37,146 nt of DNA, taken from Opitutaceae bacterium (GTDB taxonomy: Bacteria; Verrucomicrobiota; Verrucomicrobiia; Opitutales; Opitutaceae). Below, one piece after another: positions 10,231-28,563 of this stretch. A model generated the notes under the pieces. The model was not told where the DNA came from and did no database searches. It saw only the letters and a program-made list of their open reading frames with translations. Location: the NCBI GenBank assembly GCA_018667915.1, contig JABIRI010000150.1:1-37146 (forward strand), read 5' to 3'. The translations under genes were made by a program, and so were the position numbers. How positions within the stretch are numbered: the first letter of the stretch is position 1; every line of letters starts with the position of its first letter.

Positions 10231-10243
10231 TTGATGGCGTGAC

Positions 10244-12005: not shown

Positions 12006-12007
12006 GG

Positions 12008-13024: not shown

Positions 13025-13037
13025 CACAAAGGGGAGG

Positions 13038-13051: not shown

Positions 13052-13205
13052 GAAAGGGAGAGGAAGGTGTCGCGAAAGCGGCCGCGCCAAAATTAAGGGG
13101 GTATCGGCTTGGCCCACCATTGCGCTTGGGTGTCTTCACGCAAAATAAAACTGAAAATCTCGCTCATCGCTTGCGGCCAGAGAAGTGAGTCTTGAAGATC
13201 CGCGC

Positions 13206-14663
13206 ATGAACTCCCCGTTACCCCTCTTGGCGGCGATCACTGGTTTGACGACCTCCGTGATTTCAGCGCAGGTGCTGGAGATTGGTTCGCAACGCGAACT
13301 GATGATTGACCATCACTTGATCGATTCATTGCAAGGTGTGGAATTGCGGTTGCAAGAACCCCACAATGAAGGTGTCGCGTTCGCGTTTGATCGACCGCAT
13401 GAGGGGCTCTTTAGCGGGTATGTCACGATCGTGACGCTACCCGGCGGGGCAGGGTATCGCGCTTATTACCGCGGATTACCGGTGTTGGCCCGAGCGGGGG
13501 CACCGGAAGAGTCCACGTCCTACGCGGAATCGAAAGATGGTATCACGTGGACCAAACCGACTGACAATGTCACCCTGCGCGATGAGCGTTGGGTCACGCA
13601 CAACCTTTCCGTTTTCTACGATGCCAAACCCGGGGTGCCGGATGACGAACGGTGGAAAGGCATCGGCGGACTCAATACGTCTGGGCTGATTCGGGTGGTT
13701 TCAGCCGATGGTCTGACTTGGCGCAAACCCTGGGGCGACGATCCGATCCTGCCGGCGATTCCGGAGGAGCGGAAGATGTATCGTTATGATTCTCAGAATC
13801 TCGCGTTTTGGTCGGAGTCGGAGGAACAGTATGTGTGCTACTTTCGTCATGTGCGCGCGGTGCCGGGAATGGGTGATCGCGTGCGATTGATCGGTCGAGC
13901 CACGAGCCCAGATTTCATTAACTGGACTGACGAAGGAGAAATGTCATTTCGCCGCGCCGATGGTTCGGCGGCGACCGTCGAGCACCTCTATACCAACCAG
14001 ACCTCCCCCTACGCGCGCGCGCCTCATCTCTATGTGGCCATCGCGGCACGTTTTCTTCCGGGCCGCCAGGTGCTCAACGACGCCGAGGCGAAGGAGGTTG
14101 GGGTAAGTCCCGAGTATTTTAACGACATCTCTGATAGCGTGCTGATGACGACGCGCGGTGGCACCGTCTACGATCGCACGTTTATGGAAGGATTCGCTCG
14201 GCCAGGAATCGGATTGGGCAATTGGACTTCCCGCACGAATTATCCGGCGCTGAATGTCATTCAAACGGGACCGACAGAAATGTCGTTCTTTGTGCAAAAA
14301 GGCTATGGTCAACCCGATCACCGGTTGGAGCGGTATTCGCTGCGGCTCGATGGGTTCGCCGCGTTACATGCCGGCTACGACGGTGGAGAGATGGTGACCA
14401 AACCCTTCACGTTTTCGGGCGAAGAGCTGGAGATCAATTATGCGACCTCCGCGGCGGGGAGCCTGCGCTTCGAGTTGCAGGACGAATATGGTGTTGCTCT
14501 TCCGGGTTACGCGCTGGCGGATTCGCGCGAGATCATTGGTGACCAAATCGCGCGCACCGTGGCTTGGACCGGAGGCACCAGTGTGAAGGCCCTCGCCGGT
14601 AAAACTGTCCGCCTGCGTGTCGTGCTGAAGGATGCCGATTTGTTTTCACTTCGATTCCTATGA
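13206..14663 (+). CDS. Exported glycosidase-like beta-propeller protein, paralogue 1
   Basis: 485 aa from the ATG at 13206. MNSPLPLLAAITGLTTSVIS is a short signal peptide; a start 7 codons earlier would place charged residues before it. It belongs with 16714-18234 and 26920-28563. Shared landmarks with the latter are IGSQREL.(I/V)D, YAES.DGI.W.KP, YDSQNLAFW, a LYTN...PY.RAPHL block, SDSVLMTTR, and the tail RYSLRLDGF...VTKPF.F. followed by ATSAAGSLRFELQDE. The repeated DGI.W strands look like blades of a five-bladed propeller as in GH32/GH43-type enzymes. I do not recognise an assigned GH family, and catalytic residues cannot be named with confidence. The TGA overlaps the next ATG by 4 nt. First gene of the five-gene export operon. 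Confidence 0.8.
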   Translation: MNSPLPLLAAITGLTTSVISAQVLEIGSQRELMIDHHLIDSLQGVELRLQEPHNEGVAFAFDRPHEGLFSGYVTIVTLPGGAGYRAYYRGLPVLARAGAPEESTSYAESKDGITWTKPTDNVTLRDERWVTHNLSVFYDAKPGVPDDERWKGIGGLNTSGLIRVVSADGLTWRKPWGDDPILPAIPEERKMYRYDSQNLAFWSESEEQYVCYFRHVRAVPGMGDRVRLIGRATSPDFINWTDEGEMSFRRADGSAATVEHLYTNQTSPYARAPHLYVAIAARFLPGRQVLNDAEAKEVGVSPEYFNDISDSVLMTTRGGTVYDRTFMEGFARPGIGLGNWTSRTNYPALNVIQTGPTEMSFFVQKGYGQPDHRLERYSLRLDGFAALHAGYDGGEMVTKPFTFSGEELEINYATSAAGSLRFELQDEYGVALPGYALADSREIIGDQIARTVAWTGGTSVKALAGKTVRLRVVLKDADLFSLRFL

Positions 14664-15511
14664 AGTGGAGCGAAATCAAGTCGGTGGGCTGGAGTGCTCT
14701 AGCCCTGCTGATGCTCGGAACGAACCTCGTTGCCGCCGCTGATAAGGAGCCGGTATTGGCGCGAGGAGTAACTGAATCGGGCGTGGCTTATGGGGTTTGG
14801 GGATACCCCGTTGAGGGGCCGTCTCCGGTGCTGATTAATTTGGGGAGCACCATCGATGATATTTTAGGCAGTGCCTATTATAGGCAGTCCGGAAATGAGT
14901 TGGCGGAGCGCGGTTACTTGAGTGTGTCGATCGATATCCCGGGACACGGTGATCAGCACCGATCGGGCGAGCCGGAGGGGTTGAAGGCCTGGCGTTTTCG
15001 CTCGGATCGGAACGAGAACTTTGTCACGGCCAACAACCGACGATTGGCGGACGTGATTGATCACCTGATCAGCACCGGCGTGGCAGATACAAAGCGCATT
15101 GCCGTCTGCGGGACCTCGCGAGGCGGCTTCCTTGCGCTTCATTTTGCGGCTTTCGATTCGCGCGTGTCGGTGGTCGCGGCCTTTGCGCCGGTGACAGATT
15201 TGTTGGTTTTGCGCGAGTTTGATGGAACGGATGAGGTGAGTGTGGTGAATGAGCTGGCGACGGAAAAACTGGCCGACCGTTTGAGGAGTAAATCGGTATG
15301 GATCATTATCGGAGATCGCGACGAACGGGTGGGCACGGATGAAGCGATCGCAACTGCTCGGGCCATCACGCGAGCAGCTTTAAATCACGGACAGTCGAGC
15401 CAGGTTGAGCTGCACGTATTGCCGGAACCGAAGGGACACACCACACCGCAAGGTGCAGCGGCGATGGCTGCCACATGGATTTATCAACAGCACCAAATCG
15501 AAACGGAGTAA
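14660..15511 (+). CDS. Exported alpha/beta hydrolase (dienelactone hydrolase / prolyl oligopeptidase-like)
   Basis: 283 aa. Signal peptide up to about LVAAA (residues 11-27). Alpha/beta hydrolase core: IDIPGHGDQH at 91-100, nucleophile motif CGTSRGG with S153, acid D219 or D221 in IIGDRDERVGTD, and H260 in EPKGHTT. A serine esterase or peptidase active outside the cytoplasm is expected. In a polysaccharide operon, removing acetyl, feruloyl or methyl esters from sugars is a sensible guess, not shown. Coupled by ATGA overlap to the upstream propeller gene, and followed 5 nt later by the BNR protein, so expression of the three is linked. Confidence 0.85.
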   Translation: MKWSEIKSVGWSALALLMLGTNLVAAADKEPVLARGVTESGVAYGVWGYPVEGPSPVLINLGSTIDDILGSAYYRQSGNELAERGYLSVSIDIPGHGDQHRSGEPEGLKAWRFRSDRNENFVTANNRRLADVIDHLISTGVADTKRIAVCGTSRGGFLALHFAAFDSRVSVVAAFAPVTDLLVLREFDGTDEVSVVNELATEKLADRLRSKSVWIIIGDRDERVGTDEAIATARAITRAALNHGQSSQVELHVLPEPKGHTTPQGAAAMAATWIYQQHQIETE

Positions 15512-15516
15512 CTGAC

Positions 15517-16695
15517 ATGAAAATGCACTCGAGATTAATTGGAATTGTGGTCGGCCTCGTGGGTGGGTTCGGCGCGTCGATCGTGGCGACGGCAAGCGTC
15601 CCCGGTATCCACAAGGTGAAGGACGTGATTATCTATCAGGACGATCGATTCCACTCCGCGTTTCCCTCGGTGGTGAAACGTCCTGACGGCGAGTTGTTGG
15701 TCGCGTTTCGGCGGGCGCCCAATCGGCTGCTGTGGGGGGAAGATCACAACAACCACGTTGATCCCAATAGCTATATGGTGATGGTGCGATCTTCGGATGG
15801 AGAGAACTTCACCGCCGAACCGGAACTGATTCACGCGAACAACTGGGGCGGTTCGCAGGATCCGTGTATGTTGCAACTGCGTGATGGGACGATTCTGTGC
15901 TTCAGTTATGGCTGGACGTTTGTGCGGCCCGACGGCGTGCCGAATTTGAAACCCCCGGTGCGAAATGTCGGATACAACGCAATTTTTAACGGCGGGTATT
16001 ATCTACGTTCGGAGGACGGGGGGCAAAATTGGCAGGGACCGATGCGAGCCCCGCATATCGAACCGGAGTTGCTGCTCGATCCGTTTGGTGAACCCATTAC
16101 GGCATACAACCGGGGCGCCGCGGTGGAAGGTAAGGATGGACGGCTCTTCTGGGTTGCGGCGGCGACCGATCGGATTTCACCGCATCGCACCTCCACCCAT
16201 CTTCTGATATCGGAAGATAAGGGACTGTCGTGGGAATATTCGACACCGGTGGCGGCCGATGAGGACGTGACGTTTAACGAAGCTTCGATCTATGAAACGC
16301 CGAAGGGGGATTTGGTGGCGTTTTTGCGCACGGCGAATTTTGAGGATCAAGCGTGTATCGCTCGCTCTACCGATGGTGGAAAAACGTTCGAACCGTGGCA
16401 GGGAATGGGATGGCAAGGTCATCCGCTCCACGCCCTTCGTTTGCCGGATAATAGGGTGTTGTTGGTTTACGGCTACCGTCATGCCCCGCGCGGGATTCGC
16501 GCCCGGGTGTTGAATGCCGAATGCACGGACTATGCGACGGCGGCGGAGATTGTGCTGCGCGATGATGGCACGACCTCGGATCTCGGTTATCCGTGGTCGG
16601 TGATGCTGGATGATAAGCGCGTTTTGGTAACCTATTACATGAATGTCGACGGAGGCCTGCCGCACATTGCAGGCACGATCTTGGCGCTGAATTAA
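15517..16695 (+). CDS. Exported sialidase-like BNR/Asp-box beta-propeller protein
   Basis: 392 aa from the ATG at 15517, 5 nt after the previous stop, with GGAG about ten bases upstream. Signal peptide 1-27. Asp boxes mark a six-bladed propeller: SSDGENF 92-98, SEDGGQNW 165-172, SEDKGLSW 232-239, STDGGKTF 284-291. FHSAFPSVVKRPDGELLVAFRR near 45-66 has the arginine placed as in sialidases, cut here to its role. Family members include exo-sialidases (GH33) and many untested enzymes on uronic or deoxy sugars. The full sialidase set (arginine triad, Tyr/Glu pair) is not obvious by eye, so sialic acid is not asserted as substrate. Lies within the export operon; an outer-membrane or periplasmic site is likely. 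Confidence 0.82.
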   Translation: MKMHSRLIGIVVGLVGGFGASIVATASVPGIHKVKDVIIYQDDRFHSAFPSVVKRPDGELLVAFRRAPNRLLWGEDHNNHVDPNSYMVMVRSSDGENFTAEPELIHANNWGGSQDPCMLQLRDGTILCFSYGWTFVRPDGVPNLKPPVRNVGYNAIFNGGYYLRSEDGGQNWQGPMRAPHIEPELLLDPFGEPITAYNRGAAVEGKDGRLFWVAAATDRISPHRTSTHLLISEDKGLSWEYSTPVAADEDVTFNEASIYETPKGDLVAFLRTANFEDQACIARSTDGGKTFEPWQGMGWQGHPLHALRLPDNRVLLVYGYRHAPRGIRARVLNAECTDYATAAEIVLRDDGTTSDLGYPWSVMLDDKRVLVTYYMNVDGGLPHIAGTILALN

Positions 16696-16713
16696 TCCTC
16701 TCTAGAAATCCCC

Positions 16714-18234
16714 ATGAAAATCTCCTCTATCCGAGCAGCGCTGGTGTCGCTATTGTTAGTATCCGCGCTACGACCAGATGTCGTGGCGGCAGGTCTCAAC
16801 CCGATCGGCCAGCAACGTCAGTTTTTCTTCGATGATGCTATTGTTGAAACACTGGAGAACACCCGCCGGAAACTGAACCCGGCGTTGAAGCTTGCAGATA
16901 ATCCCGTGATCAAACGGGACAAACCTTGGGAAGGGCCGGACATGCGTTTGGCCTGGGTGATCTTTGATCAGCGCATGGGCAAATTCCGCATGCGTTATTC
17001 GTCCGGAGTGTTTCGGGCGGCGGGGCGCGACGAAAAGGGCGAGGTTATCGTAAAAGGAGAGCACGATGAGGAGTCGGCCAAGCGCGTGGTTTGCGAAGCG
17101 TTCTCCGATGACGGGGTGAATTGGGTGAAACCGGAGTTGGGCTTGGTTGAATTCGAGGGATCGACCGCGAACAACATCCTGCCGGAATCGGCGCTCTATT
17201 ATTACCTGTTTGAAGATCTCCATGACCCCGATCCGGCGAAGCGTTACAAAGCGCAGGTGCGCACGGGGACTTACGATGGCAATGGCATGACCTACGCGAT
17301 GTATTATTCGTCCGACGCCTACGTCTGGACGGCTTACGCTGAGAATCCCATCATCGACACGGGCACGCAACCCGGTCGGTGGGGTCCGTCGGATTTCATG
17401 GGTTGGGATCCGATTCGTGAGACTTACGCGGTGCACATGGAGAACAATTTCCATATGCATTCACCCACTCATCACCGCCGATCCATTGGGCGAGCGGAGA
17501 GCCCGGACATGATCCATTGGTCCGAACCCGCAACGATCATCGTGGTGGATGATGAGGACTATCCTGACACGGAGTTCTATCATTTTCCGGCCATTACTCA
17601 CGAAGGCTGGTATATGGGTTTCCTGTGGATGTTTTCGACGACGAACACTCAACACGAACCACACTTCGCGTTTAGTCGGGATGGGATTAATTATGATCGC
17701 ACTTATCGGGAACCAATTATTCGTCGCGGGGACAATGGACGATTTGATGCGGTATCTGTTTATGCCAATCGCCCGATTATTCACGGCGATGAAGTGCTCT
17801 GCTATTACACGGGCACGAACTGGCGTTCGCCGGAGCAGCTGGTGGTGTTGGGGGATAAGGCGGAAGCCAAGATTGGCTTGGCCAAGCTCCCGTTGGATGG
17901 GTTCGTTTCGCTTGAAGGCGCGCGCCATAATTTCAGTCGTGTCACGACCCGCACGTTCACTTTCGAAGGAGATAAATTGGAGGTGAACCTCCAGGCAGCA
18001 TTGCAGCAATGGGGCGCGGAACCATGCGAAGTGAAGGTGGAAATCCTTAACGGGCGACACGCCCCGATCGAGGGTTTTGGTTTTGATGACGCCGATACGC
18101 TTTCGACCACTGCGGTTGATCATGTCGTAACCTGGCGCGGCGGTGATGCGGATGTCTCCGCATTGGCTGGCCAGCCCGTGCGCTTAAAAATCCATTTCAA
18201 GAACGCCAAACTCTACACGTTCCAATTCCGATGA
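16714..18234 (+). CDS. Exported glycosidase-like beta-propeller protein, paralogue 2 (divergent)
   Basis: 506 aa. Signal peptide MKISSIRAALVSLLLVSALR to about AAG at 27. The N-terminus QQRQFFFDDAIVE, then SDDGVNWVKPELGL..FEGSTANNIL and the blade repeats MIHWSEP and SRDGINYDRT show kinship to paralogues 1 and 3. The tail LDGFVSLEGA..TTRTFTFEG..LEVNLQ ending VSALAGQPVRLKIHFKNAKLYTFQFR (shown in parts) is the same C-terminal beta module, here without the ATSAAGS box. It therefore probably acts on a related but different linkage. No GH family is assigned. It follows the BNR gene by 18 nt and overlaps the next gene by ATGA. Confidence 0.78.
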   Translation: MKISSIRAALVSLLLVSALRPDVVAAGLNPIGQQRQFFFDDAIVETLENTRRKLNPALKLADNPVIKRDKPWEGPDMRLAWVIFDQRMGKFRMRYSSGVFRAAGRDEKGEVIVKGEHDEESAKRVVCEAFSDDGVNWVKPELGLVEFEGSTANNILPESALYYYLFEDLHDPDPAKRYKAQVRTGTYDGNGMTYAMYYSSDAYVWTAYAENPIIDTGTQPGRWGPSDFMGWDPIRETYAVHMENNFHMHSPTHHRRSIGRAESPDMIHWSEPATIIVVDDEDYPDTEFYHFPAITHEGWYMGFLWMFSTTNTQHEPHFAFSRDGINYDRTYREPIIRRGDNGRFDAVSVYANRPIIHGDEVLCYYTGTNWRSPEQLVVLGDKAEAKIGLAKLPLDGFVSLEGARHNFSRVTTRTFTFEGDKLEVNLQAALQQWGAEPCEVKVEILNGRHAPIEGFGFDDADTLSTTAVDHVVTWRGGDADVSALAGQPVRLKIHFKNAKLYTFQFR

Positions 18235-19931
18235 AAGGCCGCTTGATTACCGCCGCAGCGCTTTTTTGGGTCGCGGGACTTTCCGCCACTGAACGTTTGC
18301 TCTTCGACGACTACTATCAGCATCCGCGCGATGACGCGCAGTATGGCCAAGGAGTAGCGCGGGGCGATGCCACGTTGCGGGGACTCTCCAATTTCTATGC
18401 GCCTCATGCGACCGGGATTCCCAATGGCACCTTTGTTTTCGCGGAATTGATCGCTGAGAAATGGGTCACGGAAGTGAGTGACCAACCGATCTCGAGCGAG
18501 TTACTGGAGGGAGTGGGTGGCTACATGTTGGTATGTCCGGTGCGCAAGGAGTTGGACGGTCGGGCAAATTTGACCGAGCATGAGGCGGACATCCTGGAAG
18601 CATTTGTGGCCAACGGCGGCAGCCTGATAATGGTGGCCAACAGTGTTTCGGATCCGGATAAGATTGGTTTCGATTTTGCCGGTATGAATCTCATCGGAGC
18701 CCGCTTCGGTGCTCAGTTTTTACCGACCCAGACGGATACCATTTCGGTGCCGATCGCACCGGATCATCCCGTGTTTGATGACGTGTCCGATATCATCTTT
18801 GGCAATGGCGCGACCATCACGATCGCGGAGAAGCCATCGGTCGATGCCGTGGTGTTGATGGCCAGTCATCGTGAGGGCGTGGAAGGACCGGTCGCGGTAT
18901 TGATTACGCATGGGAAGGGCAAGGTGCTGATGCTGGGAGATGCCGGCACCTTGGGGAATGCCCACGCGTTCCGCGGCGATACGGATCACGCGGAAGGTTT
19001 GCGCCAGATGATGTTTGCGCTGCTGCCTGATGGACCGATGCCGCATTACGTTTGGAGGCTAGGGACGTCGCTGAGTGTGAACGTGCGCGAAGAACAGGTG
19101 GTGTCCGGCTATCCCGAGTTGATGGAGGTGTTCCGGCTCCCGCATCCGGCGGGCGCTCAAGTGTTTTCAAGTGCGATGCGGCAGATCGATTTGGAGGCGT
19201 CGGGCGCGTCCGCGACTGCGGCGTCGAGCAAAGATTTTGTTTCGGCGGTGGCAGAGCGATCGGGCGAGTTTTTGTTGGAGGTCGGAGAGGCCCGTGGCGG
19301 TGGGTTTGCGGTGGATTGGCAGATCGGTGATCAGGCGATGGCTGCCAAACTGATGCCCAATGGCCGAATGCAGGAGGGCGAGATGCCACGTGATCAGGCT
19401 GGGGACGATTGGTCCTCCGTTCTGATGAACGAAATCATTGGCGGTCCTTTACGGTCCCACGCGCAGCCCGGTGAACGTTGGTCGGCGTCGACGCTTGCGC
19501 GTTGGCCGCAGTTGCAACTGGGTGCGGTGGCGCGCCACGAGAAGACGGCAGGGACGTTTCATTTTGTGGGCGAAGCCAACTTCGCGGGTGAACCGTGTTA
19601 TCGCGTGAAGCGAGTCGTTGAATTGGATGGGAGCGACTGGTCGTTGGGTGACCTTGTGGACGCCGAGTATGCGACGCAGATGGAATCTCTCGGACTTAAA
19701 GTGCAGGCCGGAGGAATGCTTACGGTGTCCGAGTATTGGATAAGTCGGACCACGCGTTTACCGGTGCATACCAAGGTGAGCACGACGGCGACGGTGTGGT
19801 GGGAAGATCCTCGGTTCCCCGCTAGATACGTGGGGAGCCACGATTCCAAGAATTACGAAAATTGGGAGCGGACCAATTTTGTGATCACTTACGGGCGGGT
19901 GCTGGAGGCGGATTTTTCTGACCGGCGGTAA
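18231..19931 (+). CDS. Exported protein of unknown function with a GATase1/DUF4350-like N-terminal half
   Basis: 566 aa; not recognised with confidence. Signal peptide MKGRLITAAALFWVAGLSA. The N-terminal half (about 20-275) reads like a class-I amidotransferase or DUF4350-type fold: LTEHEADILEAFVANGGSLI near 115-134, PDHPVFDDVSDI, then GKGKVLMLGDAGTLGN near 227-242. No cysteine-histidine amidase pair is seen, so a binding role is more likely. The C-terminal half (about 280-566) has many beta strands and no motif I know; WIS..TRLPVHTKV and WWEDPRFPARY recall lipoprotein-type carrier domains (weak). It is the last gene of the export operon, coupled by ATGA to the propeller gene. A scaffolding or glycan-binding helper is possible. 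Confidence 0.65.
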   Translation: MKGRLITAAALFWVAGLSATERLLFDDYYQHPRDDAQYGQGVARGDATLRGLSNFYAPHATGIPNGTFVFAELIAEKWVTEVSDQPISSELLEGVGGYMLVCPVRKELDGRANLTEHEADILEAFVANGGSLIMVANSVSDPDKIGFDFAGMNLIGARFGAQFLPTQTDTISVPIAPDHPVFDDVSDIIFGNGATITIAEKPSVDAVVLMASHREGVEGPVAVLITHGKGKVLMLGDAGTLGNAHAFRGDTDHAEGLRQMMFALLPDGPMPHYVWRLGTSLSVNVREEQVVSGYPELMEVFRLPHPAGAQVFSSAMRQIDLEASGASATAASSKDFVSAVAERSGEFLLEVGEARGGGFAVDWQIGDQAMAAKLMPNGRMQEGEMPRDQAGDDWSSVLMNEIIGGPLRSHAQPGERWSASTLARWPQLQLGAVARHEKTAGTFHFVGEANFAGEPCYRVKRVVELDGSDWSLGDLVDAEYATQMESLGLKVQAGGMLTVSEYWISRTTRLPVHTKVSTTATVWWEDPRFPARYVGSHDSKNYENWERTNFVITYGRVLEADFSDRR

Positions 19932-19981
19932 GGGCGGGCGCCGAGTAGGGGTGGAGGGGGGGAATTTGATAAAGATAAAGA

Positions 19982-20016
19982 TCCGCCATTATCCCGCTGG
20001 GCGGGACAATGGCGGA
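19982..20016. terminator. Strong stem-loop after the export operon
   Basis: TCCGCCATT (19982-19990) pairs perfectly with AATGGCGGA (20008-20016), and inside it TCCCGC pairs with GCGGGA around a TGG loop: 15 base pairs with one internal mismatch. It is flanked on both sides by TAAAGATAAAG. It lies 51 nt after the stop at 19931, so it may end or stabilise that transcript; no T-run follows. Rest of the 406-bp gap: two large palindromes (20088-20238) and small hairpins at 20271-20296. No gene is seen. Confidence 0.5.
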
Positions 20017-20087
20017 CAAGTAAAGATAAAGAGAAAGAACTGGGAGGCAGGTGCGCTTGACGGGACTTTTGGTTCGCTCGGTTCGAA

Positions 20088-20156
20088 GGGGTCACGTCGG
20101 AAAAAATTAACTGCCCCTGCTCCGCGGGATTCGTTAGTTTTTAACGACATGACCCC
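20088..20156. repeat. Large imperfect palindrome A
   Basis: The 24-nt arms 20088-20111 and 20133-20156 pair at 20 of 24 positions, with outer ends GGGGTCA and TGACCCC. Further out, GTTCGAAG (20081) and CTTCGAAC (20162-20169) also pair, off register by a few bases. The interior has a CCGCGG core. It looks like a decayed mobile palindrome or a transposon-end remnant. Confidence 0.6.
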
Positions 20157-20174
20157 GTGGGCTTCGAACGTCTT

Positions 20175-20238
20175 GGGGTTGGTGTCGCTAAAAAGTATAA
20201 CGAAGCAAAGCGTAGTTCACTTTTTGCGACCCGACCCC
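20175..20238. repeat. Large imperfect palindrome B
   Basis: GGGGTTGGTGTCGCTAAAAA begins the left arm (20175-20196); the right arm 20219-20238 ends GCGACCCGACCCC. The inner segments CGCTAAAAAGT and ACTTTTTGCG pair almost completely, and the loop AACGAAGCAAAGCGTAGTT is partly self-complementary. It follows palindrome A directly and shares its GGGGT...ACCCC ends. Confidence 0.6.
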
Positions 20239-20270
20239 TTACCCGCACGATCGCACGGACTCGAGAACGA

Positions 20271-20296
20271 TCCGCCTTCGCCGAGGCTTCGGCGGA
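20271..20296. repeat. Small GC-rich hairpin with alternative pairings
   Basis: TCCGCC (20271) can pair with GGCGGA (20291), or CGCCGA (20279) with TCGGCG (20289) around GGCT. The TCCGCC...GGCGGA ends match those of the stem-loop at 19982. Flanking ACGAGAACGA-like repeats occur on both sides. Between two genes that both end here (convergent), so bidirectional termination is possible. Confidence 0.4.
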
Positions 20297-20337
20297 CAAG
20301 GAACGAGAACGATTACGAGGCTGATTGGATTATTGGC

Positions 20338-21231
20338 CTACTTCCTCCCACTCGCCGCTAGAATGACCCAGGCGGCGGAGGTGCGGGCGTCGGGGGCGGG
20401 GTGATCGAGGAGGGGCACGAGGTCCTTGATATCGCTCGGGTCGTAGTAGGGCATGATGCCCTGCACGCTGTGGAAGATCAGGAGCGGATCGCTCGTGGCG
20501 ATGGCGGCTTCCAGAAACTTGCGCCACTTCGGCATGTCGGCGGGAGAGGCATTCAGAAAGTGGGCGTTGGCGACGACGATCGTATTCACGAGATCAACCC
20601 CTTCGGCGGCGTTGGCGGCCGCGGCGAGTGCCGCTAAGATTGTCGGGTCAGTGGGTTTTAGGCGGGCCAGCATGTAGGCGACGCGTAGCCGAGTATCCCC
20701 ATCGCCGGTTTCCAGCCATTTGACAATTTGCGGGGTAGCGGAAGCGGGCAGGTCGCGCGACCAATTGCACCAGAGCGCGAAGGCGGCGTCTTTATCCGGG
20801 GCTTCGGCGGCCCATGCTTCCATGTTGGCTACCACATGCGGCGGAGGAGGCGCGAGTAGCTTGGCGACGGATTCGGCGGCGTGGACGCGATCCGGGAGTC
20901 CGAGCGTGGTGGCGATATTGAAGATCTGGTTGATCCAGATCTGACGGGCTTCGGGGGTGCGATCGACCCGGGCCAGGGCACGCCAATTCGTGATACGCAT
21001 GATGGGGGTATCGTCCTGCTCGAATCGAATCGGATAATAATGCTCCCAGACTTTGCGGCTGTGACCAAAGGGAATGAGGACTTCGGCGGCATGAATCTGA
21101 TCGACGGGTGTGCCTACTTCGAGGACTTCAAGCAGGGTGTCTATCGCGCGATCAGTGAGTGATTCAGCGGAAGCGGCGAGGGCGACGGAAGCTGATAGCA
21201 CGAGGGAGAGGAGTAAGGATCGAGAGGTCAT
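20338..21231 (-). CDS. Exported HEAT-like helical repeat protein of unknown function
   Basis: 297 aa from the ATG at 21231, giving MTSRSLLLSLVLSASVALAA, a clear signal peptide; a longer reading to 21270 would bury it behind 13 residues. After the signal the protein is all-helical with alternating hydrophobic pairs (AESVAKLLAPP, VAYMLARLKPTDPTILAAL, LVPLLDHPAPDARTSAAWVI), typical of HEAT or armadillo-like solenoids that bind proteins. No catalytic motif is seen. It follows the D-2-hydroxyacid dehydrogenase gene by 14 nt and is the last gene of the minus operon starting at 23478. A periplasmic adaptor is a fair guess; it could be unrelated to the pathway. Confidence 0.72.
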   Translation of the reverse strand: MTSRSLLLSLVLSASVALAASAESLTDRAIDTLLEVLEVGTPVDQIHAAEVLIPFGHSRKVWEHYYPIRFEQDDTPIMRITNWRALARVDRTPEARQIWINQIFNIATTLGLPDRVHAAESVAKLLAPPPPHVVANMEAWAAEAPDKDAAFALWCNWSRDLPASATPQIVKWLETGDGDTRLRVAYMLARLKPTDPTILAALAAAANAAEGVDLVNTIVVANAHFLNASPADMPKWRKFLEAAIATSDPLLIFHSVQGIMPYYDPSDIKDLVPLLDHPAPDARTSAAWVILAASGRK

Positions 21232-21245
21232 GGGACGATGCGGGT

Positions 21246-22220
21246 TTAAACTGAGCTGGGGTGTTGCCAAACGACGTTATGGTGCGGTGTGCCGTTGCGG
21301 TGGTGGGCGATATTTTCAGCGATCACGCCCCAGCGGTAAGCCATGGTTTCATGGGTGGGTTTATGCGGTGTCATGACCACATTGTCCAACTCGTGGAAAG
21401 GAGCGGTGGAGGGATGGCAGGGCTGATTATCTGTCGGGTAGGTCCACCAGACATCGAGTCCCGCGCCGCCAATTTTTCGTTCCTTCAAGGCCGTGTAGAG
21501 CGCGGCTTGATCGATGACGGGTCCGCGCCCGATGTTGATGATAAAGGCGGAGGGTTTCATCAGCTGGAGCTCAGGAATGCTGATTAAATCGATCGTGCCC
21601 TCGGCGCTGGGAATGGCGACGATCACGAAGTCGGCCGAGGGGAGCCGGATGGCTAGATCTGAGAGTGGCCCGAATGCTTGGAGGTCGAGATCTATGGCGC
21701 GCTCGGGATTGGCGGTGCGGGTGAGCACGGTGATTTTCATGTCGAGAAACTGTCCCCAGCGGACGAGTTCCCGACCGATGTGACCGAGGCCGAGCACGAG
21801 GAGATTCTTGCCGCTGACCTCGGGGAGGAAGGGACGCTCGGGCGTCCAATTGCCTTTACGAAGGTTGCGGTCGAGATTGAGCACGCCTTGTTGCAGATTG
21901 AGCATGTGGGCGAAGGCCCGTTCCGCGACCGCGCGCTCGTGACCGTAGACATTGCAAACCGTGCAGCCGGGTGGGAGGGCCTCGTGGGCGATCCCGTCGA
22001 CTCCGGCTCCAACACTTTGCATGAGTAGGGGACGGTTCGTAGCCGGAACGTGCCACTCGGATTTGAACAGCCCGGAAACAACGGCATCCCAATCGGGTAG
22101 CTGATCCGCAACCTCATCGTCATCGAGGGTGTCGAGGTGGATCAACTCATGCGGCACGGTTAAGCGTTCGGCTAGAGCGGGAGCAAAGCTGGCGTTGATG
22201 GCGATACGGACGGGAGGCAT
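21246..22220 (-). CDS. D-2-hydroxyacid dehydrogenase family protein
   Basis: 324 aa from the ATG at 22220; the frame is open further upstream only as the antisense shadow of the enolase gene. NAD motif GLGHIGR at 144-150, R232 in NIGRGPVID, and H286 in MTPHKP. The catalytic glutamate normally found just after LDV (as in DVFE.EP) is absent: the sequence reads GLDVWWTYPTD at 254-264. Subfamilies with DVWW or DVWY followed by YP may still be active, but the change is worth noting. Typical reaction: NAD-linked reduction of a 2-keto acid or oxidation of a D-2-hydroxy acid. It lies 22 nt after the enolase-superfamily gene, so it could handle the 2-keto product of that dehydratase. Confidence 0.87.
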   Translation of the reverse strand: MPPVRIAINASFAPALAERLTVPHELIHLDTLDDDEVADQLPDWDAVVSGLFKSEWHVPATNRPLLMQSVGAGVDGIAHEALPPGCTVCNVYGHERAVAERAFAHMLNLQQGVLNLDRNLRKGNWTPERPFLPEVSGKNLLVLGLGHIGRELVRWGQFLDMKITVLTRTANPERAIDLDLQAFGPLSDLAIRLPSADFVIVAIPSAEGTIDLISIPELQLMKPSAFIINIGRGPVIDQAALYTALKERKIGGAGLDVWWTYPTDNQPCHPSTAPFHELDNVVMTPHKPTHETMAYRWGVIAENIAHHRNGTPHHNVVWQHPSSV

Positions 22221-22242
22221 GGCAGCAGCGAAGTTGGCGGAG

Positions 22243-23478
22243 TTACGCGAGAAGGGTTTCGCCCGGTTCAAGGTGCTCGCGGCAGACTTCGAGATCGAGT
22301 TCGACGCCGAGGCCAGGCGCATCAGAGAGGGGGATGTGACCGTCACGGAAAAGGGGAACGTCGCGCCGCACGTATTGGCCGATCCAGTCGGTTTCGATGA
22401 AGTGGTATTCGACGCCGAGGAAACTACGGCAGGTGGCCGCAACGTTAGCGGCGGCGATAGTGGCGAGTGCGCCGCCATTGCCATGGAAGGCGGCCGAGCG
22501 GTGATGGACCTCAGCGTATTGGGCGATCTTTTGGAGCTCGTGCATGCCGCCGCAGAACATGACGTCGGGATGAATGATGTCGCAGGCCTGATGGTCGATG
22601 AATTGGCGGGCCTGTTCTAGGCCGAGCATCTCGCCGATACAAATGGGTATGGGGCTACCGGCGCGGACCTCGGCACAGGAATCGGGATTCACGATCGGAG
22701 TGGGATCCTCGAGCCACAGTAGGTTCAGAGGCTCGAGCGCTTGGGCCAGCCGAATGACGTCGGGCACGTTGTATTGCATGTGGCAATCGGCGCAGAGCTC
22801 GAAGTCAGGTCCCGCGGTTTCGCGCACCACGGTGAGTCGCTCCACGATGCGGTTGATTTGGGTGAGGGTCAGACTGCGGTTCCAAACATCGGTGTTAGCG
22901 TCGGGCGCCATGAAATCGATGTCGAACTTCAGTTGGGAAAATCCTTCGTCGCAGCTCGATGCGGCCATCTCTTTCCAGGCGTCGAGATTGGTGACGTCGG
23001 GTGGGGTGCTGCGATCGAGGTAGACTTTAACTTGATCGCGAAAGCGTCCGCCAAGCAGGTTGTAGGCGGGCGTGCCGAGCGTCTTACCGATCAGATCGCA
23101 GAGCGCGATTTCGACGCCACTCACCGCCCAAATTGGCGGTCCCCATGGTGTCGCGGTGGGCGAGCAAAATGGGACGGCGTTCATCCCGGGTTTCATCTCA
23201 TCCGCCCGCGAGGTCGGGGCGTGCGGCGCAGCGGTGCCGTAGAGCGTTTCGGAGACGATGGCATTGACGGCAAAAACGTCCCGTCCGGTGAAGTAGGCAT
23301 CAAGGTATTCGATGCCTTTGCGAATGCCCATGAAGTTATCACATTCGCCGAGTCCGAACTGACCGTTGTCGGCGTCGACGCGAATGATGACTTTGGTAAT
23401 TTTGGCGTCACTTTCGCCACCGACGCCGTGTTCACGGGGACCGCGGAGACGCATCATACGGATGGAGGTAATTTTCAT
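22243..23478 (-). CDS. Enolase superfamily protein (mandelate racemase / sugar-acid dehydratase type)
   Basis: 411 aa. N-terminal capping domain to about 125, then the barrel. Seen: K184 and D186 in LKFDID, metal ligands D231 (CADCHMQYN), E257 (WLEDPTP) and E283 (CIGEM), and H332 in FHGNGG. The DCH at 231-233 is reminiscent of mannonate or related sugar-acid dehydratases, which remove water from aldonates or uronates to give 2-keto-3-deoxy acids. The ATG at 23478 gives MKITSIRMMRLRG, a standard start for this family. First gene of the minus operon with the hydroxyacid dehydrogenase and HEAT-like protein; the candidate operator at 23568 lies 89 bp upstream. The specific sugar acid cannot be told. 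Confidence 0.9.
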   Translation of the reverse strand: MKITSIRMMRLRGPREHGVGGESDAKITKVIIRVDADNGQFGLGECDNFMGIRKGIEYLDAYFTGRDVFAVNAIVSETLYGTAAPHAPTSRADEMKPGMNAVPFCSPTATPWGPPIWAVSGVEIALCDLIGKTLGTPAYNLLGGRFRDQVKVYLDRSTPPDVTNLDAWKEMAASSCDEGFSQLKFDIDFMAPDANTDVWNRSLTLTQINRIVERLTVVRETAGPDFELCADCHMQYNVPDVIRLAQALEPLNLLWLEDPTPIVNPDSCAEVRAGSPIPICIGEMLGLEQARQFIDHQACDIIHPDVMFCGGMHELQKIAQYAEVHHRSAAFHGNGGALATIAAANVAATCRSFLGVEYHFIETDWIGQYVRRDVPLFRDGHIPLSDAPGLGVELDLEVCREHLEPGETLLA

Positions 23479-23567
23479 AGAAAAGGAAATACCGCTCAGT
23501 CATGAAGCCAGATCACTAACGATCAAAAAAACGCGAATGACGGGCGAAGGGAATCAGGGGTAAGGTG

Positions 23568-23581
23568 GATGAAATTTCATC
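23568..23581. promoter_or_regulatory. Candidate operator palindrome, site 3
   Basis: GATGAAATTTCATC is a perfect 14-bp palindrome in the 281-bp divergent region between the enolase-superfamily gene (start 23478) and the SDR gene (start 23760). It matches sites at 2631 and 13038. The rest of this gap shows no gene or further repeat. Confidence 0.55.
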
Positions 23582-23759
23582 CCGGGTGAGTCAGGGGTTT
23601 ACATCAAAGCCGAATGAGTTGATGACGAAGCCAACGTTTTGGTTTTGGTCCGTCATCGCAACGTTCATGTGCGTGATTCGTCATGAAAGTTCGCCTGAAA
23701 GTTTCAATCGAAGTGTCCTGAATCTTGCGCTGAGGATCGGTCGTATCCAGATTCGCCCG

Positions 23760-24500
23760 GTGCAGCGCGTGATTGTAACCGGAGGAGCAACCAATATCGG
23801 TCGAGCGATCACGGAGGCGTTTCTCGCCCAAGGCGCAAATGTGGTGGTAGGACAGCTGGATGCGGCGTCGGCCGCGCCGCTGATCGCTCAACATGGTGAT
23901 CAGGTGTCCGTGCTGGAATTCGATGCGGGTGATGCCATGCAATGCCGGCAGTTCGTCGATCAAGCGGCGGAGAAATTGGGTGGACTTGATGTCTTGGTCA
24001 ACAATGCGGCAATCACGGGCGTTAAAGCTCTGACGACCTTAGCCGAATTGTCGTCCGATGATTTCGACCGAATGACTAAGGTTAATTTGGGCGGTCCAAT
24101 CTTCTGTGCTCAAGCCGCCGTGCCACATTTTCGAGAAGCCGGCGGTGGTGTGATTGTGAACATCTCTTCGGTGAATGCATTCAAACCTCAGGCGGGAGGG
24201 ATGGTCTATGCGGCGAGCAAGGCGGCGCTCGGATCCGTGACCCAATCCATGGCTCGCGAATTGGCCGCGGATGGCATCCGCGTGGTCGCGGTTGCGCCCG
24301 GAGATATCCAGGTAGACACCTCAGCCGCGTCGGCAAAAATCATGTGTGAACGTGGGCTGGATTCCGAGATCGCGGAGCAGACTCCGTTGGGGCAGGGGGA
24401 GCCGAATGACGTGGCGGAGACGGTAGTTTTTCTTGGTTCGGGCAAAGCTAAATTTGTGACCGGAACCACCTGGATCGTTGACGGCGGCTTACTCGCATGA
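23760..24500 (+). CDS. SDR family oxidoreductase
   Basis: 246 aa from the GTG at 23760, a normal SDR length; an open frame continues upstream to 23565 but codes for nothing family-like, so the later start is chosen (moderate certainty, no clear ribosome binding site). Seen: TGGATNIG at 7-14, NNA at 81-83, S137 in ISSVNA, YAASK giving Y150 and K154, and end TGTTWIVDGGLLA. The TGGATNIG form with N is common in sugar and polyol dehydrogenases. Divergent from the enolase-superfamily operon across a shared candidate operator, so it probably works in the same pathway, for instance by oxidising a sugar to a lactone or a keto-deoxy acid. A repeat element follows its stop by 50 nt. Confidence 0.9.
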   Translation: MQRVIVTGGATNIGRAITEAFLAQGANVVVGQLDAASAAPLIAQHGDQVSVLEFDAGDAMQCRQFVDQAAEKLGGLDVLVNNAAITGVKALTTLAELSSDDFDRMTKVNLGGPIFCAQAAVPHFREAGGGVIVNISSVNAFKPQAGGMVYAASKAALGSVTQSMARELAADGIRVVAVAPGDIQVDTSAASAKIMCERGLDSEIAEQTPLGQGEPNDVAETVVFLGSGKAKFVTGTTWIVDGGLLA

Positions 24501-24550
24501 AGCGATTTTCCCAAAACGACTGCGGTCCAAACGGAGCGAGCTGGATGAAG

Positions 24551-24624
24551 CTGTCGGGCGTAAAGCCCGACCCACCCAGCAGGGCGCAGAATCTGAAATG
24601 TGGATCGGGCTTTATGCCCAACAT
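24551..24624. repeat. REP-like nested inverted repeat, copy 2
   Basis: The left arm (24551-24575) is identical to the left arm at 2501-2525. The right arm (24600-24624) has drifted at a few positions. The spacer begins CCAGCAGG, as in copy 5. Lies between convergent genes, 10 bp from the deacylase stop, where it could act as a two-way terminator. Confidence 0.88.
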
Positions 24625-24634
24625 TCCGTCTTCT

Positions 24635-25612
24635 TCAGAGCGGCACGATAACAAACAGGGCGTCGCCGGGCTGCACCACACACTCATGCCGCCGCAAGAC
24701 GACCGTGCCGCTGGTCTCCGCGAAAATCGGCGTCGGTGGTTGATCGAGGATCGGGCGGACTATGCCCAAGGTTGCACCCGCCTCGACGACATCCCGCAAA
24801 GCGACGATGGATTCAAAAGTCCCCGCGTGCGGCGCCGGATGGTGCGCTTGCAGATGAGTTTCTTCGGCATCGGTCGATTGGTGAAACGATTGAACGGCCA
24901 ACGGCGGCTGGGCTCCCGCCACGCAACTGAGTTCGATCAACAAATTTTGCAGTCCCTGGTCCAGGTCGGCGAGGTCGGCGGGCAGCACTTCGCCTGCACC
25001 GCGACACTCCGTGTAGATGGCAGCGACCTTGCGGTGGAACGCGGCACTCAGGGTGCGTCCCGGCAGGTAAGGGCCCGCCCAGCACCAGAACGAATCAAAG
25101 CAGGCTGCCATGGCGCGTTGGGTGGCGTCGATGTCGGCTCCCCCGCCGACGATGTAGCCGACCCACGGATGAAGTTCGAGGGCCTGACCGCCGCTGTGCA
25201 GGTCGACGTAATGGGTCGCGTGAGCGAGGACTTGAGTCTCGAAGAGGTGAGCCAGTCGGCTTGTCGGCGCACCCTCCGGCGCACCGGGAAAGGCCCGAGC
25301 CAGATTTTCGCCGTCGATCGGATGACAACGCTGTTTAGCGGCGAAGGCCGCCTCGTTGAGCACCGGCACGATCACGACGGTGCCGCAGAGATCGACGGGT
25401 TGCCACGTTTCTACCCATTGGCGCAAAAGCGTGGGGCCTTCATATTCGTCACCGTGCGTCGCGCCGTTGATCACCAACGCGGGACCGGGTTGATCGCTCC
25501 GCCAGATCCACGCGTCGAAGCCGAGGTCAGTGTTGCCGAACCGATGCTGAAGGCGACCGACGGGGAGCGTGGTTCCGGCCAACGGCGAAGAAGCGGAAGG
25601 GTCGTCCGTCAT
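24635..25612 (-). CDS. Succinylglutamate desuccinylase / aspartoacylase family deacylase
   Basis: 325 aa from the ATG at 25612 (MTDDPSASSPLAG); an upstream ATG at 25633 adds only seven residues. Zinc site of the AstE/ASPA family: ATHGDEYEGP near 50-59 (H and E) and DLHSGG near 138 (H). ECRGAGE near 205 carries the likely catalytic glutamate. The C-terminal beta domain (AGTFESIV, GDALFVIV) is typical. The family removes acyl groups from N-acyl amino acids or diamines. It is alone on its strand, bracketed by two REP-like elements (24551 and 25722). With M81, aminotransferase and threonine-synthase-like genes nearby, deacylation of an N-acyl amino compound is plausible. Confidence 0.87.
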   Translation of the reverse strand: MTDDPSASSPLAGTTLPVGRLQHRFGNTDLGFDAWIWRSDQPGPALVINGATHGDEYEGPTLLRQWVETWQPVDLCGTVVIVPVLNEAAFAAKQRCHPIDGENLARAFPGAPEGAPTSRLAHLFETQVLAHATHYVDLHSGGQALELHPWVGYIVGGGADIDATQRAMAACFDSFWCWAGPYLPGRTLSAAFHRKVAAIYTECRGAGEVLPADLADLDQGLQNLLIELSCVAGAQPPLAVQSFHQSTDAEETHLQAHHPAPHAGTFESIVALRDVVEAGATLGIVRPILDQPPTPIFAETSGTVVLRRHECVVQPGDALFVIVPL

Positions 25613-25721
25613 GATTGAACGAGGATCAGGCAACGCATGGACGCACGAAAAACGGCGAAGCCGGTTGGAGCAACTTCGGATCGCAGGCGTGGGGTCGTAT
25701 GAGGTTATTCAGAGGCAACGG

Positions 25722-25792
25722 TTGTCGGGCATAAAGCCCGACCCACGGCGAAGCAGTGCAACTAAAATATGGGTCGGGCTTTACGCCCGACT
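25722..25792. repeat. REP-like nested inverted repeat, copy 3
   Basis: Arms 25722-25746 and 25769-25792, each with its own GTCGGGC/GCCCGAC hairpin. Lies between the divergent deacylase and threonine-synthase-like genes. The right arm begins ATGGGTCGGGC, which makes a false upstream start (reading MGRALRPT) for the PLP enzyme gene. Confidence 0.88.
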
Positions 25793-25834
25793 TCATCTGC
25801 CTCTCAGCCGCTCGCTGACAATCGGAGGAGCCGC

Positions 25835-26914
25835 ATGAGCATTTGGAAATATGCCAAACGTTGGCAGGCTCCGCCACGCGACATCGCGGTGACGATGGGC
25901 GAGGGCAACACCCCCCTCATCCGTTCGACCCGGATTGGTCCGGCGCTGGGTCTTAAAAATCTTTGGTTCAAATACGAAGGCGGCAACCCGACGGGCTCAT
26001 ATAAAGACCGTTTTGCGGCGGCAGCGGTGACGCACCTGAAGCAGGCCGGCAGGCGCGTGTGCCTGGGCACCTCAAGCGGAAACACCGGCGCAGCGGTGGC
26101 GGCGTATTGTGCGCGGGCGGGAATCGCGTGTTATCTGGCGATCGTGGAAGGCGCACCGGACGGGAAGCTTCGGCAGATGCGGGCGTATGGCGCCCACCTT
26201 TATCGGGTGAAGGATTTTGGCAAATCGCCGGAAGTGAATAAGGCGGTGATGTCGGGTTTACGGGAACTGGCCCAGGAGTTGGACGCCGGATTCGAGGTGA
26301 GTGCGTTTGCGCTTTCGCCGCGTGGCATGGCGGGGGTAAAAACGATCGGTTACGAAATCGCCGAGGCTTTGGCGGATGAATCGTTTGCGGTTTTCAGTCC
26401 GGCAGGCGGTGGCGGGTTGACGTTGGCGGTCGCTCGCGGAGTGGAGGAATTCGGTCGCGGTGGCCGCGTGCATTGTGTGCAGCCGCTCGGAAACGATACC
26501 ATCGCGACGTCGTTGCGAAGTGGGGCGGATCGAGCCGAGGCGGTAGATTCGACTACGACGATCAGCGGCCTGCAGGTTGGCAGTGTTTTGGATGGTAATG
26601 AGGTAATCGCGGAATGCCGGAAGCAAGGCGGCACGGGTTACGTCGTGGCGGATGAATCCGTGCTCGAGTGGCAATCACGATTAGCGCGCGAAGAGGGGAT
26701 TTTTTGCGAGCCCGCCGGAGCGGTGGCTTTGGCCGGAGTGGCGGAGGCTTGTCGTCGGGGTGAGATAGACTCGGCTGAGCATGTGGTGTGTCTCGTCACG
26801 GGAGTGGGCTTCAAAGATGAGCAGTCGGTGATCGGTATGATCGGGCCCGAACCTACTCCGATGCTGACGTCCTTTAGTGAATTTTCTGCGGCGGTAAAAT
26901 CGGCGGTTTCTTAA
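25835..26914 (+). CDS. Threonine synthase-like PLP-dependent lyase (fold type II)
   Basis: 359 aa from the ATG at 25835, chosen because GGAGGAG lies 5-11 nt upstream (one of the few strong ribosome binding sites here); an in-frame ATG at 25769 is inside a repeat. Seen: MGEGNTPLIRS at 21-31, PTGSYKDR with the PLP lysine near 58, TSSGNTGAAVAAY near 80, the phosphate-binding SPAGGGGLT near 190, and CEPAGAVAL near 293. Threonine synthase converts O-phosphohomoserine to threonine, but close relatives are serine, threonine or 2,3-diaminopropionate lyases and cysteate synthase. In a catabolic region with RidA and a DTA-like protein, a lyase role is as likely as biosynthesis, so no symbol is given. 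It sits 5 nt before the propeller gene. Confidence 0.85.
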   Translation: MSIWKYAKRWQAPPRDIAVTMGEGNTPLIRSTRIGPALGLKNLWFKYEGGNPTGSYKDRFAAAAVTHLKQAGRRVCLGTSSGNTGAAVAAYCARAGIACYLAIVEGAPDGKLRQMRAYGAHLYRVKDFGKSPEVNKAVMSGLRELAQELDAGFEVSAFALSPRGMAGVKTIGYEIAEALADESFAVFSPAGGGGLTLAVARGVEEFGRGGRVHCVQPLGNDTIATSLRSGADRAEAVDSTTTISGLQVGSVLDGNEVIAECRKQGGTGYVVADESVLEWQSRLAREEGIFCEPAGAVALAGVAEACRRGEIDSAEHVVCLVTGVGFKDEQSVIGMIGPEPTPMLTSFSEFSAAVKSAVS

Positions 26915-26919
26915 AAGTG

Positions 26920-28563
26920 ATGATGAAAAACGAAATAAAGTTAAGCGGGCGCAGGACGAATCATTGGGTGTTGGGACTCGTGGCGATGGTGGTCCTCGGT
27001 GACGTGTCGATGGCGGCGGCTACCGACATCGGGTCACGACGAGAGTTGTTTGTGGACGACGCGTTGATCGAGCGGTTGGAGGGTGGGGCGGAGCTCCGAC
27101 TTCATCATCCCGTGCCGCAAGAGATCGTGCTTGAGCACAATGAACTCTGGGAAGGCACGGGCAGTGGCTACCACAGCGTGTTTCAAGATGGGGATCTTTA
27201 CCGCATGTATTACAAGTCCTGGAATATTTCGCCGTTTTCCGAAGCTGAACCAGGCGAAAGTATGTCGCATCCTCGCTTGTGCGCCTATGCCGAGAGCGAT
27301 GACGGGATCCATTGGCGCAAACCCTCCCTCGGTCTGCACAAATTTCAAGGCTCCACCGACAACAATATCGTGCTCGTTCAGGAAAAAATGGGCGACTTGG
27401 AACTTGATGCGGCGCACCCGGCGGTGTTCCTCGATACGAATCCTGACGCTCCGGCAGATGCGCGCTACAAGGCGATCATCCGGCAGATGTCCCATCCCGA
27501 CTCCACGCTCATCGCGCTCAAGTCGCCTGATGGTATCCATTGGTCGCTGTTGCATGACGAGCCCATCATCACGGATGGCAAATTCGATTCCCAGAACCTG
27601 GCTTTTTGGGATGACGTTGCGGGCTGCTATCGCGCCTATTGGCGTTACTTCATCCCGGATGAAGACGATTACTGGATGGGCAGTCGTGCGATTCGCACGG
27701 CGACTTCAAAGGATTTTATTCACTGGGAAAATCAGGCAGATCTGACCTACGAAGATTCCCCGCTGGAGCAACTCTACACCAACGTGGTTAAACCCTACCA
27801 TCGCGCCCCGCATCTACTGTTGGGGTTTCCGGCTCGTTATCTCGAGCGTGGTCACGAGGACAAGACAGTGGAGGAGCGGGCGGAGCTCGGTGAATTGGAA
27901 GACCCTGAACGGGTGGCCCAGTGGTCGGTCTCGATGTTGGCGCTGCCGGAGTTGGATGCGCGCCAGAGTCGAGGCCATGCTTCCGAGCGCTATGGCGCTG
28001 CGCTTACGGATACGCTGCTTATGGCCAGTCGAAATGGGGTGAGTTTCAAGCGTTGGAACGAAGCTTTCTTAAGCCCCGGCATGGAACGGCCCGGCACCTG
28101 GCACTATGGCCAACAATACATGGCGTGGCATGTCGTTGAAACGAAGTCAGCGCTCCAGGGTGCGCCAAACGAGTTGTCGCTGTATGCGGTGGAAAGTTAT
28201 TGGACCGCACCGGGGAGTGCGTTGCGGCGTTACACGTTGCGGTTGGATGGATTCGTTTCAGTGCGAGCTCCGTCGACGGGTGGCGAACTCGTGACTAAAC
28301 CAATCCGATTTGAGGGTTCGGCGTTGGCGCTCAATTTTGCGACCTCGGCCGCGGGAAGTATTCGCGTTGAGATTCAAGACGAAAGGGGCGAGCCGCTGCC
28401 GGGCTTTGGGCTGGAAGATTGCGCCCCGCTTTATGGCAATACGGTGGATCGATCACTGACATGGACGAGTGGTCGCAGCCTCAAGGATGTGGCAGGCCAG
28501 CCGGTGCGACTACGGTTCGTGCTGCATGATGCGGATATTTACGCCTATCAGTTTCAGCCGTGA
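26920..28563 (+). CDS. Exported glycosidase-like beta-propeller protein, paralogue 3
   Basis: About 547 aa from the ATG at 26920 (another ATG follows at once, and a GTG precedes). Signal peptide with core WVLGLVAMVVLG, cleaved near AAA at about 34. Closest to paralogue 1: IGSRRELFVDDALIERL, YAESDDGIHWRKP, FDSQNLAFW, ATSKDFIHWENQ, EQLYTN, YHRAPHLLLG, LTDTLLMASR, then RYTLRLDGF, LVTKP and FATSAAGSIRVEIQDERG. It has an extra insert of about 60 residues after RAPHLLLGFPARYLERG. Family unassigned; five-bladed propeller glycosidase by analogy with GH32/GH43. It follows the PLP gene closely, which is an odd pairing, so the transcript may serve two purposes or the PLP enzyme may belong to the glycan pathway. 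Confidence 0.8.
   Translation: MMKNEIKLSGRRTNHWVLGLVAMVVLGDVSMAAATDIGSRRELFVDDALIERLEGGAELRLHHPVPQEIVLEHNELWEGTGSGYHSVFQDGDLYRMYYKSWNISPFSEAEPGESMSHPRLCAYAESDDGIHWRKPSLGLHKFQGSTDNNIVLVQEKMGDLELDAAHPAVFLDTNPDAPADARYKAIIRQMSHPDSTLIALKSPDGIHWSLLHDEPIITDGKFDSQNLAFWDDVAGCYRAYWRYFIPDEDDYWMGSRAIRTATSKDFIHWENQADLTYEDSPLEQLYTNVVKPYHRAPHLLLGFPARYLERGHEDKTVEERAELGELEDPERVAQWSVSMLALPELDARQSRGHASERYGAALTDTLLMASRNGVSFKRWNEAFLSPGMERPGTWHYGQQYMAWHVVETKSALQGAPNELSLYAVESYWTAPGSALRRYTLRLDGFVSVRAPSTGGELVTKPIRFEGSALALNFATSAAGSIRVEIQDERGEPLPGFGLEDCAPLYGNTVDRSLTWTSGRSLKDVAGQPVRLRFVLHDADIYAYQFQP

Follow-up and report, generated by a model that had tools for sequence, protein, structure and literature searches.

Likely glycan-active members of an exported five-bladed beta-propeller family, from three apparently ancient subfamilies, in one Opitutaceae genomic island

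Among the described enzymes of the five-bladed beta-propeller superfamily, those of glycoside hydrolase (GH) family 130 carry an invariant catalytic aspartate (Asp142 in BT3780; PMC4599007), and the acids D19 and D142 have been described in the GH159 enzyme Ch_Gaf159A (PMC9278983). The GH32 invertases and levanases (clan GH-J) and the GH43 enzymes with a CBM6-type C-terminus (PDB: 3c7e and 8hcj) follow the propeller with a C-terminal sandwich, and a comparable fold is found in the N-acetylgalactosamine (GalNAc) deacetylase of Flavonifractor plautii (PDB: 6n1a). Here we analyze a stretch of 37,146 nucleotides, henceforth the window, from an Opitutaceae bacterium of the phylum Verrucomicrobiota (GenBank assembly GCA_018667915.1, contig JABIRI010000150.1), and describe three of its genes, PropA (13206-14663), PropB (16714-18234) and PropC (26920-28563), all on the forward strand. 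Their products belong to an exported family that combines a five-bladed propeller of the GH43/GH32/GH130 type with a C-terminal beta-sandwich, and whose most likely role, proposed here with modest confidence, is periplasmic or extracellular glycoside hydrolysis.

The initial annotation of the window had recognized these genes as three exported homologs, and their coordinates and reading frames proved right, alternative GTG starts being possible upstream at 13185 for PropA and at 26917 for PropC. When each pair was aligned alone with BLASTP, PropA and PropC showed 35% identity (E = 1e-83), PropB and PropC 26% (E = 1e-35), and PropA and PropB 22% (E = 2e-19); judged from these sequence comparisons, their homology extends along their length and lies far beyond chance. 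Each protein begins with a hydrophobic stretch of the signal-peptide type. Relative to their orthologues in a sister genome (G005), the nonsynonymous divergence (dN ~0.04-0.17) is far below the synonymous divergence (dS 0.4-2.5), which indicates that all three are real, constrained genes under purifying selection. The N- and C-terminal motifs that had been ascribed to all three were borne out in part: the C-terminal strings LRLDGF, VTKP, ATSAAGS and LPG are literally present in PropA and PropC only, PropB keeping just the outline of this region (PLDGF, TTRTF, an insertion replacing ATSAAGS, and IEGF), and the N-terminal RELF.DD motif reads RELMIDH in PropA and RQFFFDD in PropB.

The initial annotation could not place these proteins in a named GH family, and they fall under no Pfam or NCBIfam family. 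Scans of PropA, PropB and PropC against Pfam and NCBIfam returned nothing over the cut-offs, single-protein phmmer searches of the PDB gave no meaningful match, a Pfam scan of 75 relatives placed the family under no Pfam family, and no description of it was found in the papers searched. A scan of named genomes recovered at least 549 confirmed relatives. Of 288 genomes sampled from the window's phylum, 60 have a member (E up to 1e-20), and the genome of one relative holds as many as 29 matches. Among the matches listed, relatives come from Verrucomicrobiota, Planctomycetota, Bacteroidota, Acidobacteriota, Hydrogenedentota, Poribacteria, Latescibacterota and others, and the plasmid collection yielded one distant relative, annotated as 'hypothetical protein'. 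Fusions within the family involve SASA/SGNH esterases, BNR and LamG domains. What emerges is a sizeable, uncharacterised family within a known superfamily. As a separate observation, an Opitutaceae contig (L047:5008-13519) carries five propeller-family genes in direct tandem, one of which codes for an 821-residue protein with an unidentified extra part.

In a tree of 116 members PropA, PropB and PropC fall in three separate deep clades, with the placement of PropB left uncertain by the short tree search and the long branches; PropA shares its clade with a fourth copy encoded on another contig of the same genome (G000:C93:44462-45895). This topology rules out a recent local triplication, and the notion that the three copies represent a local expansion had to be abandoned. 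By their sequences, the three genes would instead be old subfamilies brought together in one island.

An AlphaFold2 model of PropC, built from 75 relatives, is confident (predicted local distance difference test score, pLDDT, 91.3; predicted template modeling score, pTM, 0.90) and places a five-bladed propeller at approximately residues 62-447 and a C-terminal sandwich at approximately residues 440-547 (28240-28560 in the window). The propeller nature claimed at the outset is supported by this model for PropC, and by the family-wide alignment for PropA and PropB. Structure comparison with VIA-align aligned the PropC propeller with GH130 (Z = 24.2; root mean square deviation, rmsd, 3.1; 281 residues), GH137 BT_0996 (Z = 23.6; rmsd 3.6; 295 residues), the GalNAc deacetylase 6n1a (Z = 22.5), GH43 (Z = 22.3; rmsd 2.8; 256 residues), GH117 (Z = 21.3; rmsd 3.3; 266 residues) and GH159 (Z = 21.3; rmsd 3.5; 267 residues), and Foldseek returned E = 1e-11 to GH43 enzymes having a C-terminal sandwich. 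The comparison with known enzymes that had been advised thus yielded a five-bladed glycosidase fold (Z 21-24 for the GH families named); as many of the VIA-align rows are tied, the assignment to the superfamily is firm, but that to a closest relative within it is not. The C-terminal module, 108 residues long and modeled alone with a pLDDT of 93, gave no match above noise in structure comparisons: the borderline CBM6-like matches, with a best Z to CBM6/CBM36-like sandwiches of 7.6 (rmsd 2.7; 94 residues) and a best Foldseek E of 8.5e-3 in the comparison with CBM6, CBM35 and CBM36, are at noise level.

A conserved pair of acids in the propeller funnel had been suggested as a mark of catalysis, and such a pair is present at two blade entrances, its predicted position in the funnel being based on strand register. 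E78 (codon 27151-27153) is Glu in 72 of the 75 members (96%) and Asp in 2, and in the PropC model precedes the inner strand of blade I by five residues; D223 (codon 27586-27588), an Asp in 70 of 75 (93%), precedes that of blade III by four. Most sequences from distant subfamilies still carry the blade I Glu, and an Asp is usually found close to D223. The two residues would match in position the first two acids of the GH43 and GH159 triads, and we infer that their blades correspond to those bearing D19 and D142 in Ch_Gaf159A. Other invariant aspartates, found in repeated Asp-box-like turns (S-x-D-G-x-x-W), look structural.

Profile searches lead into the same superfamily, and the Pfam and NCBIfam scans showed no clear match to a characterised GH family. 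With HMMER, the family profile matched the GH130 structure 7fip in the PDB (E = 1.1e-9), and a broader profile led by PropB (A6) matched 6n1a best (E = 3.1e-12, over profile positions 194-423), followed by 7fip (1.1e-11), GH117 (2.8e-6) and GH32 (7e-6). Alignment by hhalign with local GH32 sequences gave a probability of 84% and with a local GH43 set 0.5%; its links to local GH43 and GH130 sequences were at best weak, unlike those found by HMMER in the PDB. The family resembles GH130 in its five-bladed propeller, in the highest though tied Z, in significant profile similarity and in a WE motif before blade I. It differs in being exported with a C-terminal sandwich and in having no certain counterpart of the GH130 catalytic Asp: HMMER aligns the Asp of the EDPR motif with the conserved D172, which in the model lies at the opposite end of the inner strand of blade II. 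PF04041 (GH130) gave no hit for PropA, PropB or PropC, among the 75 members, or anywhere in the genome that holds the window.

The GH32 enzymes resemble the family in the propeller and C-terminal sandwich, in profile matches of ~1e-5 to 3e-4 and in the above hhalign score. In a HMMER alignment with invertase the Asp of the RDP motif lies one residue from D223 (PropB differs here). No Glu before blade IV, as in the EC motif, is strictly conserved in the family, and hhalign sets the NDPNG nucleophile Asp against the stretch WEGTGSGYHS, which has no acid in that column, E78 being nearest, three residues earlier. PF00251 (GH32) gave no hit for PropA, PropB or PropC and, with E allowed up to 0.1, reached only 3 of the 75 members, the best at 4e-4 and none over its cut-off. 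GH43 enzymes with a CBM6-type C-terminus and GH159 resemble the family in fold (Z 20-22), in layout and in the acids before blades I and III, but their third acid (of the E190 type) is not conserved in it, there is no significant GH43 profile match, and PF04616 (GH43) gave no hit for the three proteins or among the 75 members. Likewise, PF13088 (BNR) gave none for the three at E up to 1 and one weak hit among the 75. PropA, PropB and PropC most probably act as glycosidase-like propellers, but these comparisons do not assign them to GH32, GH43 or GH130.

The gene context of the family was compared between 20 propeller-centred stretches of 20 kb and 40 controls, almost all of them taken from these genomes too, for 18 families, with queries mostly from the window itself and P values uncorrected for the number of families. 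SDR genes occur near propeller genes in 13 of 20 stretches against 1 of 40 controls (P = 2e-7), GFO/IDH/MocA genes in 8 against 1 (P = 4e-4), MR_MLE genes in 4 against 0 (P = 0.01) and SSF genes in 4 against 1 (P = 0.04); given these limits and the overlap or sister origin of some stretches, the SDR and GFO/IDH/MocA enrichments alone are firm. Sulfatases are not enriched (5/20 versus 5/40; P = 0.19), BNR genes not significantly so (2/20 versus 0/40; P = 0.11), and when 128 neighbouring genes are pooled by Pfam family, BNR_2 ranks first with 5 members and the tally is otherwise too diverse to inform.

A second genus (G014) also combines PropA with genes of the SDR and GFO/IDH/MocA families, and a Sphingobacteriales contig (L086) brings together homologs of the aminotransferase, SSF, propeller, BNR, GFO and SDR genes. 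In Parapedobacter soli, a locus combines a SusC-sized gene, SusD, a propeller, an SGNH esterase, GH20, an SGNH-propeller fusion and BNR, with two family members in all; it also codes for a 989-residue protein with no Pfam match (L066:12860-15826). The initial annotation had proposed a glycan-degrading family from neighbouring esterase, BNR and sulfatase genes: glycan-catabolic surroundings are supported by the SDR and GFO/IDH/MocA enrichment and the Parapedobacter SusCD locus, whereas the sulfatase is uninformative. Three substrate assignments were given up: a sulfated substrate, as sulfatases are not enriched; fucoidan or L-fucose, suggested by the fuconolactonase-like, rhaM and MR_MLE neighbours, whose scores below the equivalog cut-offs leave only 'sugar or sugar-acid catabolism'; and a sialic-acid-type substrate, suggested by BNR genes and SASA fusions, as BNR proximity is not significant.

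If these proteins are glycoside hydrolases, a terminal sugar would enter the propeller funnel, in the periplasm or outside the cell, the family probably being exo-acting. E78 and D223 would be the best candidates for the base or nucleophile and the acid or pKa modulator, and the C-terminal sandwich, predicted to pack on the propeller, may help bind the glycan. The freed sugars would then be taken up by SSF symporters and oxidised by the neighbouring SDR, GFO/IDH/MocA, lactonase and MR_MLE dehydratase enzymes. Several points weigh against this interpretation. No family member has an established activity or substrate, and it is a deacetylase that the broad alignment matches best in the PDB. The placement of E78 and D223 in the funnel derives from strand register and not from measured distances; no Glu of blade IV, the third carboxylate of GH32 and GH43, is equally conserved (E283 in 44/75, N288 in 64/75, H298 in 57/75); and the EDPR Asp of GH130 is without a certain counterpart. 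PropB keeps the Glu in a PWE motif, but its residue in the D223 column is Gly, with an Asp three columns further along; its active site may therefore be different. Finally, the context stretches are not all independent, some overlapping and several coming from one genus or from sister genomes. We tentatively go further and consider it possible, at a little below an even chance, that this branch of the five-bladed propeller superfamily is a new GH family, or a cluster of subfamilies, whose catalytic set differs from those of GH32, GH43 and GH130 in pairing a Glu ahead of blade I with an Asp ahead of blade III and in having no blade-IV Glu, and that the glycan unit on which it acts is broken down by way of SDR, GFO/IDH/MocA and sugar-acid dehydratase reactions.

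The family, or a part of it and PropB above all, might instead work alongside true glycosidases by stripping glycans of acyl substituents, N-acetyl for example, in the manner of the F. plautii deacetylase. Beyond the leading profile score and the structural Z of 6n1a, an Asp of that enzyme aligns with the D223 column, the Parapedobacter locus contains GH20 and some members are fused to esterases; we nonetheless hold deacylation to be unlikely, since the GH130 matches are equally strong and, in a difference from 6n1a, no His is common to all members, H298 being absent from PropB. That the propellers merely bind glycans and present them to partner enzymes would suit the fusions to enzymes and LamG domains, the borderline CBM6-like C-terminus and the incomplete catalytic triad, but retention of the two blade-entrance acids across very distant members is what catalysis would predict and makes a non-catalytic role improbable. 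Phosphorylases (or lyases) of the GH130 type are likewise improbable: GH130 has the highest Z of the folds compared, albeit in a tie, and is among the top two in profile searches, and the WE motif that 7fip shares with the family brings a Glu into alignment with E78, but the proteins are exported to where sugar phosphates would be lost, PF04041 does not match them, and D172 ends its strand in the model opposite to the location of a catalytic Asp.

The neighbours of the three genes in the window are considered here with glycoside hydrolysis as the preferred reading. PropA opens a tight run on the forward strand, in which it overlaps by 4 bases an exported, esterase- or peptidase-like alpha/beta-hydrolase with a signal-like N-terminus (14660-15511; Peptidase_S9 1.4e-9, Esterase 4e-7); there follow an exported, sialidase-like BNR_2 protein (15475-16695; PF13088 2e-16), the divergent PropB and, again with a 4-base overlap, an exported protein with a weak DUF4350 match (18231-19931), which stays with PropB in G005. 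These genes overlap or nearly touch, as those of one transcription unit would. Divergent from PropA on the reverse strand (7855-13120) lie an SSF symporter, two SDR and two GFO/IDH/MocA oxidoreductase genes, whose order is the same throughout the genus and is partly retained in G014. An enolase-superfamily sugar-acid dehydratase is encoded at 22243-23478 on the reverse strand, its top models being gluconate/galactonate and L-rhamnonate dehydratases, all below the cut-off.

Immediately 5' of PropC, by a few bases, lies a forward-strand gene for a pyridoxal phosphate-dependent enzyme resembling threonine synthases and dehydratases (25769-26914), an adjacency also seen in three other genomes of the genus (G005, G007 and G002); in an Opitutaceae contig (L039) the same set lies near a PropC homolog but spaced apart. 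An AstE/AspA-type deacylase, identified by match and synteny, is conserved near PropC on the reverse strand (24635-25633); the long open reading frame antisense to it (24497-25618, forward) is less likely to be the real gene. Downstream, on the forward strand, come an amidohydrolase resembling L-fucono-1,5-lactonase (28804-29694; 273.6 bits, below the equivalog cut-off of 400) and a sulfatase (29737-31512; PF00884 2e-53), the latter, like the esterase-like and BNR genes, present as first annotated, and then an L-rhamnose-mutarotase family gene on the reverse strand (31599-32312; PF05336 1.6e-14). Beyond it, also on the reverse strand, lies the gene of a PhoD-like protein (32439-34811); in Prosthecobacter (L048), a relative sharing 67% identity with this protein is encoded close to a propeller gene.

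At the other end of the window, a forward-strand class III aminotransferase gene (2549-3998) is frameshifted near 3156-3202, from frame 2 to frame 3, its G005 orthologue being one open frame of 487 codons; either a sequencing error or decay would account for this. L086 (1222-3540) encodes an amidohydrolase and a class III aminotransferase as one fusion protein, where the window has separate neighbouring genes (1440-3998), which suggests that the two act in one pathway. Genes for an M81 (MlrC-like) protein and then a RidA-family protein (4026-5932, forward) keep their order across the genus.

Widespread as it is, the family is covered by no Pfam or NCBIfam model, and a proven activity would name as carbohydrate enzymes many 'hypothetical proteins' of Verrucomicrobiota and Planctomycetota. 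As the named strain Parapedobacter soli KCTC 12984 has two members in its SusCD locus, the question of function is testable, and a proven activity would also inform which glycans the Verrucomicrobiota and Planctomycetota use.

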